From Bacteroidales bacterium (GTDB taxonomy: Bacteria > Bacteroidota > Bacteroidia > Bacteroidales > JAADGE01), in contig JAKISF010000020.1 in NCBI GenBank assembly GCA_021648725.1, forward strand, positions 1 through 62,602: 62,602 nt of DNA, in the 5' to 3' direction. Numbering within the stretch: position 1 is the stretch's first letter; each line of letters begins with the position of its first letter. A program made the position numbers and the translations under genes. This document shows positions 23,171 to 30,881 of the stretch, piece by piece. The notes under the pieces were generated by a model. That model worked only from the letters and a program-made list of their open reading frames with translations. It was not told the DNA's origin and made no database searches.

Positions 23171-23304
23171 TTTAAATAAATTTAAAAAATTAATAAATAA
23201 AAAAATAACAACAGTATTAACCCGAAAAGTTTGGAAGTATAAAATAAGATGAGCAAAAATGTTCACCGTAAAGCTTTTTCTCCCGAAAGCTTCGGATAAT
23301 ATCT

Positions 23305-23495
23305 GCGAAAACAGGCAGGTATTCTGACTTACTCCTTATTTTGAACGCCTTCCCGTTTGTATGCATCCAAACAGTGGCAAAAAAATGTTCAAAACATTGA
23401 AGAACACAGCAGCGGGTACTGTTGCCGATTCTGACGGCATTCCCTTTTAAGCAAACTGTATGAAATAAATTTGCTTACCTGATTCGGTTGCAAAC
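23305..23495 (-). ncRNA. cobalamin (adenosylcobalamin-type) riboswitch
   Basis: The minus strand shows the conserved elements in order: AAAAGGGAATGCCG, then CGGCAACAGTACCCGCTGCTGTG (23404-23426 region), GCCACTG, GGGAAGGCG, and the B12 box AGTCAGAATACCTGCCTG (23313-23330). This is the standard cobalamin aptamer core. It sits about 135 bp upstream of the first gene of the B12 operon and should shut the operon down when cobalamin is plentiful. A stem CCGAA-GCTT-TTCGG (about 23283-23296) follows and may be part of the expression platform. The outer boundaries are approximate. Confidence 0.93.
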
Positions 23496-23621
23496 TTAAA
23501 TAATAATTTCTGAAAAATGCATTTAAAAAGAAAAATCTGTAAACTAAAATTCAATGAATACTATACAAAATGATATTTTTTTGTATCTTTCGGGTTTTAT
23601 TAAAACAGTGCATTATAAAAA

Positions 23622-25295
23622 ATGAATATAAGAACGAAAATACCTTTATATACAGGTGTAACGGTTTTAGTTACAATGCTTGTTGTTACGGTATTTTCTA
23701 TTTTAGAATACAGAAGCAGAACTCTTGAAAGTATTGAATCTTACAGGAATGAGCAAACAGATATTATTAAGAACCAATTAAAAGATCATGTTAATAATGC
23801 TTATAAAATATTGAATAAATCATATTCGGAGATAAAGAACAGGTATCAACTTAATTCTGTTAAAATTAAAGATTATCCGGTTGAACTAAGGCAAGCGATA
23901 AGAGATATTGAGCAAATATCATTCGGAGATGCAGGTTATATTTGGTTAAATGAAGTTAATCCGCCTTATACGGTTATTATGCATCCAATAAAACCGGAAA
24001 TGAACGGAACAGTTCAGGTATTCTATATAAAGGACACCCAACAGAATGTTTATGAGGCATTTGCAGATGTTATTATTGCAAATAAGGGCGAAGGTTTTTT
24101 AGGATATGACTATTATAAACCGGGAACAAATGAAAGAATTCCGAAATTGAGTTTTATAAAATTATTTGAACCATACGGCTGGGTTATAGGAACAGGTGTT
24201 TATGTTGATTATATTGATAAGATGGTTGCTCGTAAAACTGAAGAACTAAATAAACAAACGAGCAAAATGATTAAAATAATTTTAATACTCGGTTTTGTTT
24301 TAATTGCTTTAGCAACAGTTACACTATTCTATTTGGGAAAAACAATAACGGATGCAATATATTCTGTTCAACAAAAATTATTTCATATGTCAAAAGGGCA
24401 TATCATAGAACCCGATAAGACAGAAAGGTCTGATGAAATAGGAGATATGAATAAATCTTTAAGTGAGTTGATTGCGGGAGTTAATACATATTCAGAGTTT
24501 GCATCAAATATAGAAAAGGGGAATTTAGATGCAGGCTTTAAACCTTTGAGCGACAAAGATAATTTGGGTATTTCGTTGTTAGATATGAGAGAAAGTCTTA
24601 AGGCTGCAAAAGAAGAAGAACAAAAAAGAGCGGAAGAAAATGAGCGAAGAAATTATGCAAATGAAGGATATGCCATGTTTAGTGAACTTATGCGTAAAGG
24701 CAGTGAAGATATAAGAGAATTATCATACGCCGTAATAGGTAATCTTGTATCTTATGTTAAGGGTATTCAGGGTGGTATTTTTATCTTAAATGATGAAAAT
24801 AAAGAAGATGTTTTTTTGGAATTAACGGCATCAATAGCATATAACAGACGGAAATTTAAAGAAAAAAAGATAAAAATAGGCGACGGATTAATCGGAGCTT
24901 GTGCATACGAAAAAGAAAAAATTTATATAACAAATATTCCGGATGATTATGCTGAGATTCGCTCAGGCTTGGGAACAGCAAATCCTAAATCAATATTAAT
25001 TATTCCGTTATTGATGGAAGACAACTTAATCGGTATTATTGAGTTGGCTTCATTAGATATTATAGATGAATTTGATATTGAGTTTGTTGAAAAAGTTTCT
25101 GAAAGTATTGCAGCTTCATTATATGCAGCAAAAATTAGTACAAAAACATCTTTATTACAAAAAGAATATAACGAGTTGTTAAAAGAAAAAGAAAATTATA
25201 GTGAAACTTTGATTGCTAAAGAAAAAGAAATTAAGATGTTAAGGCGAAAATTAACAACATTAAAAGAAGAGAAATCAATTTTGTCGATTAAATAA
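23622..25295 (+). CDS. Cache-HAMP-GAF membrane sensor without catalytic output
   Basis: A 557-residue membrane sensor. The domains in order are a transmembrane helix (about 7-29), a periplasmic single-Cache domain (about 35-205, with GDAGYIWLNEV and GWVIGTGVYVDYID), a second transmembrane helix (about 217-238), a HAMP segment (about 240-290, ERSDEIGDMNKSL), a coiled coil, a GAF domain (about 340-500, KIGDGLIGACAYEKEKIYITNI) and a C-terminal coiled coil. There is no kinase, cyclase, phosphatase or methyl-accepting domain, so the signal must pass to a partner protein. It is followed after 20 bp by the transporter-like gene at 25316 and then by a LytTR regulator, which suggests one signalling unit. 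Confidence 0.82.
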   Translation: MNIRTKIPLYTGVTVLVTMLVVTVFSILEYRSRTLESIESYRNEQTDIIKNQLKDHVNNAYKILNKSYSEIKNRYQLNSVKIKDYPVELRQAIRDIEQISFGDAGYIWLNEVNPPYTVIMHPIKPEMNGTVQVFYIKDTQQNVYEAFADVIIANKGEGFLGYDYYKPGTNERIPKLSFIKLFEPYGWVIGTGVYVDYIDKMVARKTEELNKQTSKMIKIILILGFVLIALATVTLFYLGKTITDAIYSVQQKLFHMSKGHIIEPDKTERSDEIGDMNKSLSELIAGVNTYSEFASNIEKGNLDAGFKPLSDKDNLGISLLDMRESLKAAKEEEQKRAEENERRNYANEGYAMFSELMRKGSEDIRELSYAVIGNLVSYVKGIQGGIFILNDENKEDVFLELTASIAYNRRKFKEKKIKIGDGLIGACAYEKEKIYITNIPDDYAEIRSGLGTANPKSILIIPLLMEDNLIGIIELASLDIIDEFDIEFVEKVSESIAASLYAAKISTKTSLLQKEYNELLKEKENYSETLIAKEKEIKMLRRKLTTLKEEKSILSIK

Positions 25296-25315
25296 TGAAC
25301 TTATTAAAATGAATT

Positions 25316-28300
25316 ATGTCAAATATCAATAAGATATTAATTAAAACCTTAGGATTAAAATCTGATGAGATAAATAAATTCGTATTATTATTTTTACATT
25401 CTTTTTTTATAGGACTGTTTATTGCATTTTATTTTGTTCAGGCAAACTCTGTTTTTATACGAGAATACGGAAGTGAGCAATTACCTTATGCATATCTTAT
25501 GGCAGGACTGGTAGGATATATTATTTCATCTTTATATTCATATTTTCAACAAAAAGTAAAAAGTAAATATCTCTTTTTATCTGCATTAGCTTTTATGCTG
25601 ATAATAAGTCTTTTCGGAAGAATTGCTTTAGGATTTATAGATCCTAAATATTTAAGCTTCTTTGTTTTTATTTGGGCTTGGCCTTTTATTTCTCTTGCAG
25701 GAATTGAATCCGGAGGTTTAGCAATACGGTTATTAAACTTAGTTCAAATAAAACGTTTGTTCGGATTAATTAATATGGGCGGTGTTATTGCTTCAATTTT
25801 AGGTTATTTGATAATTCCTGTTTTAACAAATTATATAGGTTCAACTTATAACCTTTTACTCGTCTCCGTTGCAAGTCTCGGAGCGGCAATATTGGTATTG
25901 TATTTTATTTATAAAAAGTTTCCTGAGAAAAAAGAAAAAGAAAAGGTTTCAAAAACCGAAACAAAAACAACTTTTAAACACCTAATCAAAGACAAATATT
26001 TTAAATTGATATTCTTGTCTGCAACATTATCTATGACAGTAATTTATATTACTGATTTCGGATTCCTTTCGGCAATTAAAGTTCAAGAAAGTATTTTATT
26101 TATAAAAGAAGGTTCTGTTGCAGGATTTTTAGCACTTGTTTTTGCTGCTTTAAAGGTCGGAGAACTTATAATATCATATCTTTCAAGCAGAATATTAGTA
26201 AAATACGGAGTAAAACTCGGCTTAATTGTATTACCCGTTTCAATTACACTTATTGTTTTTATATCACTTTTTATCGGGTTTACTGTAGGAGCAGTTACAA
26301 TTACTTTTTTGATATTAATGGTTTTAAACAAATCATTTGAAAGAATAATGAGACGAGGGCTTGACGATCCTGCTTTTAATATTTTATACCAACCTTTACC
26401 GAGTAATTTGCAATTAGCGGTTCAATCAAAAGTAGGCATAGTAATGCAATTTGCTATTGCAATTGCCGGGGCACTATTATTAGCATTAAGTCTTTTGTTA
26501 AATTTAGGAGGAGGGTTCAGTTTAGAATTTTTCCCTGTATTCTTTTTGCCCATTTTAGTGTTATGGGTATTTGTAGCCAGAAAATTATATTTGGCATATA
26601 AAGATAAGTTGAGAGAAATTTTGAAAGAGATGAGTTCTCAAAAAAGACACGACACCTCAAAATACAGATATGGTACGGAAGTATTATCAAAAAAATTTAA
26701 AAAGTTCAACGATAATGTTGTTAGGCTGAGTGTAACTATTCTTGCAGAAACAAATCCCAGAATTTTTGAACCTTATATTTCTTCATTAATAAAAAAAGAT
26801 GATAATGAAATTAACAAAGCTGTTTTAAAAAGTATTGATCCGACGTGGCGAGAAAGGATTGTTAAACAAATAAAAACACAATTTGAAAATGAAAATGAAA
26901 AAGAAGTTGCCGAATGTGCAAAACATGCCGTTTCACTTTTAGATTTTAATGAAGTTGAAAAAATAAAGCCCGAAATACTTGATAAGTCTGATAAAACAGA
27001 AGATAAGGTAAAACTAATCAAGTACTTGGTTAAAAATTCAAATGATAAGAATATTGAAAAATATATTTTGAATTTATTCAAATTTAATGATAAAACAGTT
27101 AAAAACTCAGCGGTAAGATTAGCGGTAGGAATTAAAACCGACAAATTAATTGAGCAATTAGTATTTTTATTAAAATCTCCTGAATATTATCACGTCAGTA
27201 TGGCTGCATTGCTTGATATAGGAGAAAAAGCATTAAATAAACTGAATGATTTATATGAAAACACAGAAGATGAGGCTGTATTATTAAAAATTATTGAGAT
27301 ATATGCTAAAATGGGTTCAAGCTCGGCAAAATCTTTAATAGTTAAACAAATTAATTACCCTTCAAGAAAAATTCAATTAGCTGTAATTTGGGCACTATTT
27401 TATTGTAAATACCAAGCTCCCGAAGAAGAAGAAAAAATAATTAAAGAAAAAATCCTCAGAGTAACCGATAATTTATTGCTTATACTAACCTCATTAAGTG
27501 ATATAAAATCTGAAAAAAATACTTTAAAGCTTTTTTTAGCTCTCGACCAAGAACGAGAAACAAATTATGAGATGCTGTTCAGCTTACTAAGCTTTCTTCA
27601 TGAACCCAGAATAATAAATCTGATTAAGAAAAATATTATAGGAAAAAATACAATATACGCATTAGAGCTCATTGATAACTTTATTCAACCGGATTTAAAA
27701 CCTTATATCGTTCCGATTTTTGACGATATATCTACGCCTCAAAAAATTAAAAAATTATCAAAATATTTCCCTCATAAAAGATTAGCTTATAATGACCGGC
27801 TTCGCTCAATCATTACTCTTGATTTTGACAAAATTAGCACATGGGCAGTTGCAAAAGCATTAGAAATGCTCGAAAGGGTTCACAGAAATAAGGAAAAAGA
27901 TAAAAACATCAGCAGTGAACAAAGTTTTGAAGATATTGTTCCGTGGACAAATGAAAATACAAAACCTGTTCTGGGACAAATTAAAAAAAGCGAATTGCCG
28001 GATGAAGTATTCCTAAGTCTGTTTCATCCCGATGAATTAGTTTATTCAACAGCAGCAAAAATTATTTATGATGAAAATCCGCAAAAATGTTTTGAGTATC
28101 TAAAAAATATGTCAAATAAGAAACAAGAACTGGCGGATATTCTTACAAATAACGGCGTTTTATTGCAAAATAAAGTAAAACTGTTAAGAAGGTATCAACT
28201 TTTCTTTAGTATCCCCGACTATTTGCTTGTCGAATTAGCCGAAATTATAAGCGTTAATGAACTCGGAAAAGGAGAAAAAATATTCTTTAATTCAAACGGA

Positions 28301-28537
28301 AACGAAAGTATTTTTATTTTAATAAGAGGAGAATTAATAAAAGATGCAGGAAAAAAATCAGAAGAAAAATTTTCAAAGAAAGTTGTATTAACACCGGGAT
28401 TAAATATTGACAGTGATACAGAATACTTAACCGCAAGCAAAAAAACAGTCGTATTAGTTGCTAACAGATTTCAATATTTTAATTTATTAGTAGATAATAC
28501 TAAAATTTTGCAGCATATATTTGATATTATACAATAA
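25316..28537 (+). CDS. nucleotide-transporter-like membrane protein fused to HEAT repeats and a CNB-like domain
   Basis: A 1073-residue protein. The N-terminal part (about residues 18-435) has about twelve transmembrane helices and resembles the MFS/NTT (ADP-ATP translocase-like) fold. A basic junction leads into a long series of HEAT-like helical repeats (about 450-955). The last 115 residues resemble a cyclic-nucleotide-binding domain (LFFSIPDYLLVELAEI ... NESIFILIRGEL). The phosphate-binding cassette with its conserved Gly-Glu and Arg is not evident, so nucleotide binding is doubtful. Such fusions are known in Bacteroidota genomes but I know of no characterised member. The position between a Cache-GAF sensor and a LytTR regulator suggests a transducer rather than a simple carrier. 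Confidence 0.72.
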   Translation: MSNINKILIKTLGLKSDEINKFVLLFLHSFFIGLFIAFYFVQANSVFIREYGSEQLPYAYLMAGLVGYIISSLYSYFQQKVKSKYLFLSALAFMLIISLFGRIALGFIDPKYLSFFVFIWAWPFISLAGIESGGLAIRLLNLVQIKRLFGLINMGGVIASILGYLIIPVLTNYIGSTYNLLLVSVASLGAAILVLYFIYKKFPEKKEKEKVSKTETKTTFKHLIKDKYFKLIFLSATLSMTVIYITDFGFLSAIKVQESILFIKEGSVAGFLALVFAALKVGELIISYLSSRILVKYGVKLGLIVLPVSITLIVFISLFIGFTVGAVTITFLILMVLNKSFERIMRRGLDDPAFNILYQPLPSNLQLAVQSKVGIVMQFAIAIAGALLLALSLLLNLGGGFSLEFFPVFFLPILVLWVFVARKLYLAYKDKLREILKEMSSQKRHDTSKYRYGTEVLSKKFKKFNDNVVRLSVTILAETNPRIFEPYISSLIKKDDNEINKAVLKSIDPTWRERIVKQIKTQFENENEKEVAECAKHAVSLLDFNEVEKIKPEILDKSDKTEDKVKLIKYLVKNSNDKNIEKYILNLFKFNDKTVKNSAVRLAVGIKTDKLIEQLVFLLKSPEYYHVSMAALLDIGEKALNKLNDLYENTEDEAVLLKIIEIYAKMGSSSAKSLIVKQINYPSRKIQLAVIWALFYCKYQAPEEEEKIIKEKILRVTDNLLLILTSLSDIKSEKNTLKLFLALDQERETNYEMLFSLLSFLHEPRIINLIKKNIIGKNTIYALELIDNFIQPDLKPYIVPIFDDISTPQKIKKLSKYFPHKRLAYNDRLRSIITLDFDKISTWAVAKALEMLERVHRNKEKDKNISSEQSFEDIVPWTNENTKPVLGQIKKSELPDEVFLSLFHPDELVYSTAAKIIYDENPQKCFEYLKNMSNKKQELADILTNNGVLLQNKVKLLRRYQLFFSIPDYLLVELAEIISVNELGKGEKIFFNSNGNESIFILIRGELIKDAGKKSEEKFSKKVVLTPGLNIDSDTEYLTASKKTVVLVANRFQYFNLLVDNTKILQHIFDIIQ

Positions 28538-28558
28538 ATACACATAAAAAAACATACT

Positions 28559-29266
28559 ATGAACTGTATTATAATTGATGATGATAAAGTTTCAAGACTC
28601 GTAATTGAAAAATACATAAGTAAAACAGATTTAGTTTCTTTAACCGAAACATTTGATAATGCGGTTGATGCTGCAAATTATTTTAATAAGAATGCTTCGA
28701 GCGATTTGATTTTTTTAGATATTGAAATGCCCGGAATGAGCGGTGTCGAATTTTTAGAAAGTCTTGATAATCTGCCTCAAATAATCATTGTTTCAGCTAA
28801 AGAAAAATATGCTTTACAAGCAATACAGCATGATGTTACGGATTATTTACTGAAACCTATCGTATATTCAAGGTTTCTGAAAGCTGTTACAAAAGCAAAT
28901 ACCAGACATAAAGAAGAAGCAGAGAAAGATAATTCAAAAGGAATATTTGTTAAAAGTAGTTCATCTTCTTTTGTCAGATTATTTTATGATGATGTTATGT
29001 ATATCGAAGCTATGGAAAATTATGTTGTGATTACAACTTACGAACACAAACATACAATCCATTTTACCATGAAAGCATTATTAAATAAATTACCTGCTGA
29101 TAAATTTGTACGTGTTCACAGGTCATATATTGTTAATAAAGACAAAGTAGAACGAATTGACGACAATATGATTATAATGAACACAAAAGATAAACGAAAA
29201 TCAATTCCTATATCAAAATCATATAAAGATGATTTTATGAAAAAAATAAATATTGTTAATAAATAG
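28559..29266 (+). CDS. LytTR-family response regulator
   Basis: A 235-residue regulator. The receiver domain (about 1-120) has D7-D9, phosphoacceptor D54 in FLDIEMPGM and K99 in YLLKPI. A LytTR DNA-binding domain (about 135-235) follows, with MYIEAMENYVVITT, FVRVHRSYIVN and PISKSYKD. LytTR proteins bind tandem direct repeats upstream of promoters. No histidine kinase lies next to it. The neighbours are the Cache-HAMP-GAF sensor and the HEAT/CNB membrane protein, so the phosphate donor must be encoded elsewhere or the regulator is controlled in another way. The gap to the upstream gene is 21 bp. Confidence 0.92.
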   Translation: MNCIIIDDDKVSRLVIEKYISKTDLVSLTETFDNAVDAANYFNKNASSDLIFLDIEMPGMSGVEFLESLDNLPQIIIVSAKEKYALQAIQHDVTDYLLKPIVYSRFLKAVTKANTRHKEEAEKDNSKGIFVKSSSSSFVRLFYDDVMYIEAMENYVVITTYEHKHTIHFTMKALLNKLPADKFVRVHRSYIVNKDKVERIDDNMIIMNTKDKRKSIPISKSYKDDFMKKINIVNK

Positions 29267-30740: not shown

Positions 30741-30756
30741 TTAGTAATAATAATTA

Positions 30757-30796
30757 AAAAGCCTCACATATTTAGAAATTTGTGAGGCTTTGTTTT
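30757..30796. terminator. terminator after pepD
   Basis: An 11-bp perfect stem (AAAGCCTCACA and TGTGAGGCTTT) with flanking A and T tracts lies 17 bp after the pepD stop. Confidence 0.8.
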
Positions 30797-30881
30797 CTCG
30801 GCAATATTTTTGCAGTATAAAAATACCTTTAGATATTACTTGACGAATATAATATAAAAAAGGTTTTAACAAGAAGTTATT

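Follow-up and report, generated by a model that had tools for sequence, protein, structure and literature searches.

A conserved sensor-fusion gene pair in a Bacteroidales family, and the recurrent signalling neighbours of its NTT-HEAT-CNB fusion proteins

The analysis of a Bacteroidales contig of 62,602 nucleotides (the window) showed that the conserved core of a run of three genes is two genes, which encode a Cache-GAF sensor and a fusion of an NTT-fold membrane domain with HEAT repeats and a CNB-like end. An earlier note, made from the sequence alone, had proposed all three as a unit; the sensor-fusion pair held, as the sensor was found directly upstream of the fusion gene in all 21 genomes of the family that a search for the fusion returned, spread over 7 genera, but the part of the claim concerning the third gene, a LytTR regulator, did not, as none of the six decidable genomes from other genera of the family has it adjacent to the fusion.

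The three open reading frames, all on the + strand, were located at 23622-25295 (sensor, 557 aa), 25316-28537 (fusion, 1073 aa) and 28559-29266 (LytTR, 235 aa), with gaps of 20 bp between sensor and fusion and 21 bp between fusion and LytTR, which bears out the order and spacing claimed before. They are not chance reading frames, because full-length fusion matches with 71-78% identity were found in 12 other genomes of the same genus, the copy in G007 carrying an in-frame stop. The run of genes continues past the LytTR gene with a dipeptidase gene (TIGR01893) from 29283, 16 bp beyond the LytTR stop. The source genome measures 3.24 Mb and is 98% complete. A promoter scan was uninformative, with 40 sigma-70-like sites against 42.2 expected; a pattern search for TAnnTTTG, which we take to be a Bacteroidota-type promoter element, gave one site in 23267-23621 and one in 30741-30881, a suggestive placement at most. 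The features are as follows.

23622..25295, + strand: Cache-(HAMP-like)-GAF-coil sensor, 557 aa, without enzymatic output (Pfam, orthologs, AF2 model)
23721..24236, + strand: Cache domain, residues 34-205, presumed periplasmic (dCache_2 8e-30, sCache_2 3e-17; model)
24339..24641, + strand: HAMP-like helical region, residues about 240-340 (model; ortholog match)
24705..25115, + strand: GAF domain, residues 362-498 (Pfam, model)
25068..25271, + strand: long C-terminal helix, residues 483-550, presumed coiled coil (model)
25316..28537, + strand: NTT-HEAT-CNB fusion, 1073 aa (Pfam, profile search, AlphaFold2 model, structural re-ranking)
25361..26641, + strand: membrane domain of MFS/NTT fold, residues 16-442 (AtNTT1 9j3m structural match; profile alignment)
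26366..26398, + strand: DPAFNILYQPL stretch, residues 351-361, aligned to DPCKEMAYIPL of plant NTT1 (profile alignment)
26654..28195, + strand: HEAT-type helical solenoid, residues about 447-960 (Pfam, profile, model)
28217..28531, + strand: CNB-like beta fold and C-terminal helices, residues about 968-1072, without canonical phosphate-binding cassette (profile, model)
28559..29266, + strand: LytTR response regulator, judged outside the conserved unit (Pfam, ortholog searches)

The 21 family genomes comprise 14 of the window's genus, its own included, and seven from six other genera, and the sensor adjoins the fusion in all seven of the latter; one sensor and one fusion among the 21 have an in-frame stop. 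In close relatives the gap between the two genes is kept at 11-39 bp. Two distant genomes also place a sensor beside a fusion in opposite orientation, with a 12 bp overlap in L048 and 174 bp apart in L055. The co-occurrence check proposed in the earlier note was run over 295 genomes of the order, in which a subfamily-A fusion (the window type) was counted above 750 bits by hand tally and a sensor at E <= 1e-90. The fusion was present in 30 of the 295 genomes, the sensor in 25 (the match covering the query only partly in three of these, G073, G200 and G278) and both in 23, while the sensor was matched in 2 of the 265 genomes without a subfamily-A fusion (Fisher 6e-26, a value confounded by descent) and 7 of the 30 genomes with the fusion had no sensor match at that threshold. 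Of the 23 genomes with both, 6 have the two genes side by side and 17 have them on different contigs. On an rpoB tree of 60 genomes, including 28 of the 30 with a subfamily-A fusion, each trait changes just 6 times, and the 3 (and 2) starred independent pairs left were too few for a test. The association is thus strong by count, but because it falls mostly into one clade it adds little independent proof, and order-wide co-occurrence was rejected as evidence of that kind.

The third gene encodes a protein with Response_reg and LytTR domains by Pfam. It directly follows the fusion gene in 13 of the 13 genomes of the window's genus that were searched; in the 14th, G013, which lay outside that search, the fusion is spread over more than one contig, and on one of the named contigs (L067) the LytTR gene adjoins the matching fusion end. 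Among the six decidable genomes of the other genera, five (G014-G017 and G019) carry the LytTR ortholog on another contig than the fusion, with other genes flanking the fusion or the LytTR gene, and in G020 a stretch of 2.1 kb with a leucine-rich-repeat (LRR) gene on the opposite strand separates the fusion from the ortholog downstream, after which come genes for dipeptidase and cytidine deaminase. G018 was not counted among the six: its fusion gene is divided between two contigs, and a contig end comes within 0.25 kb of its LytTR gene. LytTR orthologs were also found in genomes without a subfamily-A fusion (G026, 56% identity; G027, 51%; G057, 52%), and G027 and G057 carry fusions of the subfamily-B type. 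Both results led us to reject the LytTR gene as a member of the conserved unit, and it looks like a bystander which came to adjoin the pair in one genus. The claim that it has no adjacent kinase proved correct: its neighbours in the window are the fusion and dipeptidase genes, and no kinase was recognised by eye beside its orthologs at 14 loci, within 1.5 kb on each side or to the contig end.

Inspection by eye showed an LRR gene by the LytTR ortholog in six genomes (adjacent at L286, L287, L289, L291 and L292, one gene away at L290): besides G020 these are G014, G017, G019 and G186, where it is also adjacent, and G082, where one gene separates the two. It is a more widespread neighbour of the LytTR gene than the fusion is. 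Loss of the LRR gene would explain the adjacency of LytTR and fusion in the window's genus.

The description of the second gene as a transporter-HEAT-CNB fusion was confirmed mainly by profile and structure. Above noise, the single sequence matched only MFS_1 (1e-9) and HEAT_2 (2e-6) in Pfam; TLC (PF03219) gave no match up to E 10 anywhere in the window's genome, and none of the seven cNMP_binding matches in that genome falls on the fusion gene. A profile of 36 homologs matched the solved plant and chlamydial ATP/ADP translocators over profile positions 66-426 (E 8e-6 for plant NTT1, and 3e-5), designed HEAT repeats at 581-696, and the CNB domains of cGMP kinase at 918-1017 (E 3e-5). D351, P352, Y358, Q359 and L361 are invariant in the 36 homologs. 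The structure prediction that the earlier note had called for, an AlphaFold2 model (mean pLDDT 82.4, pTM 0.69), is made up of a membrane domain of helices, a solenoid and, at the end, a beta domain, and structural re-ranking placed AtNTT1 (9j3m) on top, with Z 34.6 and rmsd 3.1 over 420 aligned residues, ranks 2-3 being also NTT1, followed by LacY at Z 27.4; these matches fell almost wholly on residues 14-441, and the HEAT and CNB parts were barely covered. The protein thus has the NTT variant of the MFS fold with profile kinship to solved NTTs, C-terminal HEAT repeats by Pfam, profile and model, and a C-terminal CNB fold by profile and model, not by Pfam cNMP_binding.

CNB domains that bind cNMP have a phosphate-binding cassette (GE..., R). 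By sequence inspection, the canonical cassette is absent from the CNB end of the window's fusion, and in the last 130 residues a loose cassette pattern was found in none of 59 proteins of subfamily A and in 1 of 47 of subfamily B, the GE-type core alone being found in 1 of 59 and 4 of 47, respectively. Because the CNB end has no canonical cassette, control by cAMP is not supported for the window's fusion protein. Some fusion genes were matched through one in-frame stop, namely L151, L152 and L153 (G147, G244 and G030), where the open frame before the stop is about 1080 aa, so that the stop lies near the end, and L041 (G007:C144), where the frame breaks near residue 940.

The sensor had been read as Cache-HAMP-GAF without enzymatic output. 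Pfam supports the Cache and GAF parts (dCache_2, sCache_2, and GAF_2 at 1e-13) and gave neither an output domain nor a HAMP match in the window's sensor; a sub-threshold HAMP match (E 1.8e-4) was obtained in one ortholog, and the model of the window's protein has a HAMP-like helical region. The AF2 model (pLDDT 85.0, pTM 0.42) has an N-terminal helix, the Cache domain, a second long helix, the HAMP-like helices, the GAF domain and a long terminal helix, in this order. Searching the same genome with the HAMP-GAF half gave 12 more matches, one of which contains in-frame stops, and 9 of the 10 GAF paralogs that were scanned end in GAF, PAS or coil without output, the remaining one carrying SpoIIE. 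The missing output, which the earlier note took as a special sign, is therefore normal for this class of sensor. About a dozen related GAF sensors lie on contigs C29, C13, C63, C1, C11, C44, C8 and C18 of G000 (L106-L114); read by eye, these are mostly lone genes adjoining housekeeping genes.

To describe the neighbours of the fusion family, we surveyed 42 named contigs and the stretches around genome matches, which outside the family covered the window's order. The named contigs are labelled Bacteroidales, Bacteroidetes, Chlorobi or Chlorobiota, Acetofilamentum and, once, Draconibacterium. After removal of identical-protein duplicates, 107 distinct fusion reading frames of >= 850 aa were obtained, 59 of subfamily A and 48 of subfamily B. 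The linkage to signalling genes is strong for subfamily B and moderate for subfamily A, with the number of independent gains counted without a formal null.

In subfamily B, a co-directional gene lies within 300 bp downstream of 43 of the 48 fusions; among the five others, the stretch shows no further gene in two cases, and the next gene is on the opposite strand in three. By Pfam, 21 of the 43 co-directional +1 genes carry SpoIIE and 11 HATPase, in agreement with local HMMs, and the remaining eleven are six TIR-like genes, one nSTAND1 and four others (L181 and L188 cut by contig ends, L119 by the stretch end, and L195 with a propeller gene and then a kinase gene). SpoIIE or HATPase was found in 32 of 43 genes at +1, whereas at -1 to -3 the count was 3 of 97 co-directional genes (Fisher 7e-19, a p value too small since the loci are related); local HMMs found further such genes in 5 of 36 at +2 and in one of 30 at +3. 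Among co-directional genes, nSTAND1 occurs in 8 of 36 at +2, 13 of 30 at +3 and 10 of 27 at -3, and TIR-like/DUF4062 proteins lie farther downstream (at E <= 0.01, TIR_2 and DUF4062 each in 7 of 19, the TIR calls being weak). The nSTAND1 protein of L200, the one scanned whole, has WD40 repeats. The window's genome has a B copy as well, with a propeller-YYY-SpoIIE gene 12 bp downstream.

Individual B loci were also read gene by gene. In L173, L117, L176, L175 and L185, genes for NTT-HEAT-CNB, HAMP-SpoIIE, TIR-like/DUF4062 (~475 aa) and nSTAND1 proteins run co-directionally, and L197, L199-L202 and L204 have the same series with HAMP-SpoIIE absent. The nSTAND1 protein of these loci is ~1035 aa where complete, and in L203 an OMP_b-brl gene comes after it. 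The order NTT-HEAT-CNB/(HAMP-SpoIIE)/TIR-like/nSTAND1 looks like a conserved operon, of which we found no description. The kinase-type loci L166, L171, L190 and L192 comprise an nSTAND1-like gene, a TonB receptor, a formyltransferase-like gene, the fusion and a propeller-YYY kinase, with domains checked by Pfam in L166 save for the nSTAND1-like gene; L190 and L192 also encode a protein that carries SpoIIE by local HMM and, judged by eye, begins like a receiver, and a short gene of L192 looks by eye like one for an anti-sigma ATPase.

In subfamily A, 48 of 59 fusions have a co-directional upstream gene within 300 bp. Thirty-six of these 48 neighbours were scanned, after one truncated gene and the 11 sensors from close relatives had been set aside, and gave 20 Nramp, five TPR-SpoIIE and two Cache-GAF proteins, so that most A loci beyond the window's family have Nramp rather than a sensor upstream; the alignments A2 and A3 are of unrelated neighbours and served purely for Pfam scans. 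Nramp-linked members are scattered through subfamily A on the fusion tree (fasttree, with long-branch warnings). That tree has signalling neighbours at no fewer than seven separate points: the window's family, L048 and L055 (sensor on the opposite strand), ruminant-gut contigs that form a clade with SpoIIE upstream, L159 (SpoIIE), and, with a kinase-type ATPase, L153 and L069 (local HMM; L153 also by Pfam). Cache-GAF aside, 8 of the 97 genes directly next to A fusions (+/-1) carry SpoIIE or HATPase, versus 9 of 307 elsewhere in the stretches, and five of these eight belong to the ruminant-gut clade. TIR and nSTAND gave no match in subfamily-A stretches with local single-sequence HMMs at E 1e-6.

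A GGACT-like gene precedes the Nramp gene at 14 of 42 named loci, its domain having been checked in one. Such Nramp-family genes upstream of A fusions occur as tandem copies in L044 (5223-7922), L063 and L071, and also in L051, L053 and L061. The first membrane stretch of Nramp proteins is expected to contain DPGN; that of L044, by eye, has GPG in its place, so its substrate may not be a classical metal.

Gene order, domains, the predicted fold, the adjacency of sensor and fusion in one family and the recurrent signalling neighbours are what was observed, and we tentatively favour, at rather less than even confidence, the reading that the sensor controls the fusion, as transporter or transceptor, by contact with its HEAT-CNB arm. 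The two genes would presumably be co-transcribed. The fusion would be an NTT-fold membrane protein that acts as a transporter or as a receptor derived from one, and its HEAT solenoid and degenerate CNB would lie in the cytosol; the output-less Cache-GAF sensor would read a small extracellular ligand together with a cytosolic signal, and its HAMP/GAF/coil part would touch the arm and so control the fusion. At sister loci, the place of the sensor would be held by HAMP-SpoIIE, propeller-SpoIIE, TPR-SpoIIE or propeller-kinase proteins. Slightly less likely than such contact control, and in our view doubtful, is that the fusion is an ordinary regulated NTT-type transporter, the sensor signals via a separate shared pathway, and the operon is shared through a common physiology of the sensed and transported compounds. 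The output-less paralogs mostly adjoin unrelated genes, so this class of GAF sensor is probably able to signal without a neighbour, and the different contigs of sensor and fusion in most genomes with both genes agree with a separate pathway; against it, the sensor came to lie beside the fusion on more than one occasion and in either orientation, and the fusion family repeatedly has signalling neighbours. That the neighbourhood is an accident fixed by descent in one family, with no functional link, appears the least probable account: the co-directional order is indeed confined to one clade and the co-occurrence mostly phylogenetic, but the two further placements in L048 and L055 and the short gaps kept in close relatives speak against it.

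The recurrence of HEAT-CNB-tailed proteins beside signalling genes suggests that they work in signalling, and such partners, most evident in subfamily B, fit a transceptor-like role. A broader proposal, which we regard as speculative and on balance unlikely, is that NTT-HEAT-CNB proteins are mainly transceptors and not nucleotide importers, with an arm that would dock exchangeable SpoIIE, kinase or Cache-GAF partners and feed a TIR/nSTAND-WD40 module in many Bacteroidota, the window representing the simplest form, a sensor and a transceptor. Alternatively, the family could be the membrane part of a SpoIIE/TIR/nSTAND pathway, a scaffold in conflict or stress, with the window as a derived branch that kept the sensor and the membrane part. 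The many B loci with fusion, HAMP-SpoIIE, TIR-like and nSTAND1 genes in one direction and the B copy beside a propeller-SpoIIE gene in the window's own genome are in line with this scaffold, which we nevertheless consider improbable, given the subfamily-A stretches free of TIR and nSTAND matches and the weakness of the TIR calls. In addition, PADLOC, in a scan that lay outside the B fusions, matched neither the window's fusion nor its sensor, nor the SpoIIE and TIR-like proteins scanned (one of each), and on one nSTAND1 protein matched just the WD40 region (HEAT-ARM_XIII).

Linkage of the fusion to sensor, SpoIIE, kinase or TIR/nSTAND genes was not found in searches of open-licence papers, and neither SpoIIE nor nSTAND nor a nucleotide transporter comes up in the available part of a paper in eLife (2020) that treats NTP-dependent conflict systems. 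The repeated phosphatase, kinase, sensor and TIR/STAND neighbours lead to the testable hypothesis that the fusions transduce signals rather than, or besides, carrying nucleotides, and the window's pair provides a small system for testing the contact of a sensor with a transporter-like partner.

Among known systems, the BtsR/LytR-type regulators (NF008677, NF010684) share Response_reg and LytTR with the window's regulator, which matches these models below cut-off and differs in having no adjoining partner kinase. The CtpM malate chemoreceptor (NF058645) and the MctS sensor kinase (NF052443) share an N-terminal Cache domain and membrane part with the sensor, which scores 69 and 60 bits against these NCBIfam models, far under cut-off, and is without their MCP or kinase output; this likeness of its N-terminal half hints that the ligand may be a small carboxylate rather than a nucleotide. 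The AtNTT1 and Chlamydia NTT1 ATP/ADP translocators (9j3m, 9j3l, 9j3n) have the membrane fold and the DP..Y.PL stretch in common with the fusion, their aligned chains being without its HEAT-CNB tail. NTT-HEAT(-CNB) fusions are present in free-living bacteria, Chlamydia and oomycetes. The fusion architecture itself is not undescribed: NTT-HEAT and NTT-HEAT-cNBD fusions were published in 2017 with their function left open (Major, Embley and Williams, PMC5381601), and the available text of that paper tabulates Bacteroidetes NTTs (43 sequences) and offers cAMP control as a possibility. A neighbouring cNBD gene is mentioned in that text, which does not link the fusions with Cache-GAF, SpoIIE, kinase, TIR or nSTAND genes. 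The window's fusion, while differing in its want of a Pfam TLC match and of a canonical cassette in its CNB, has the same domain order, NTT fold and C-terminal CNB as the fusions described there.
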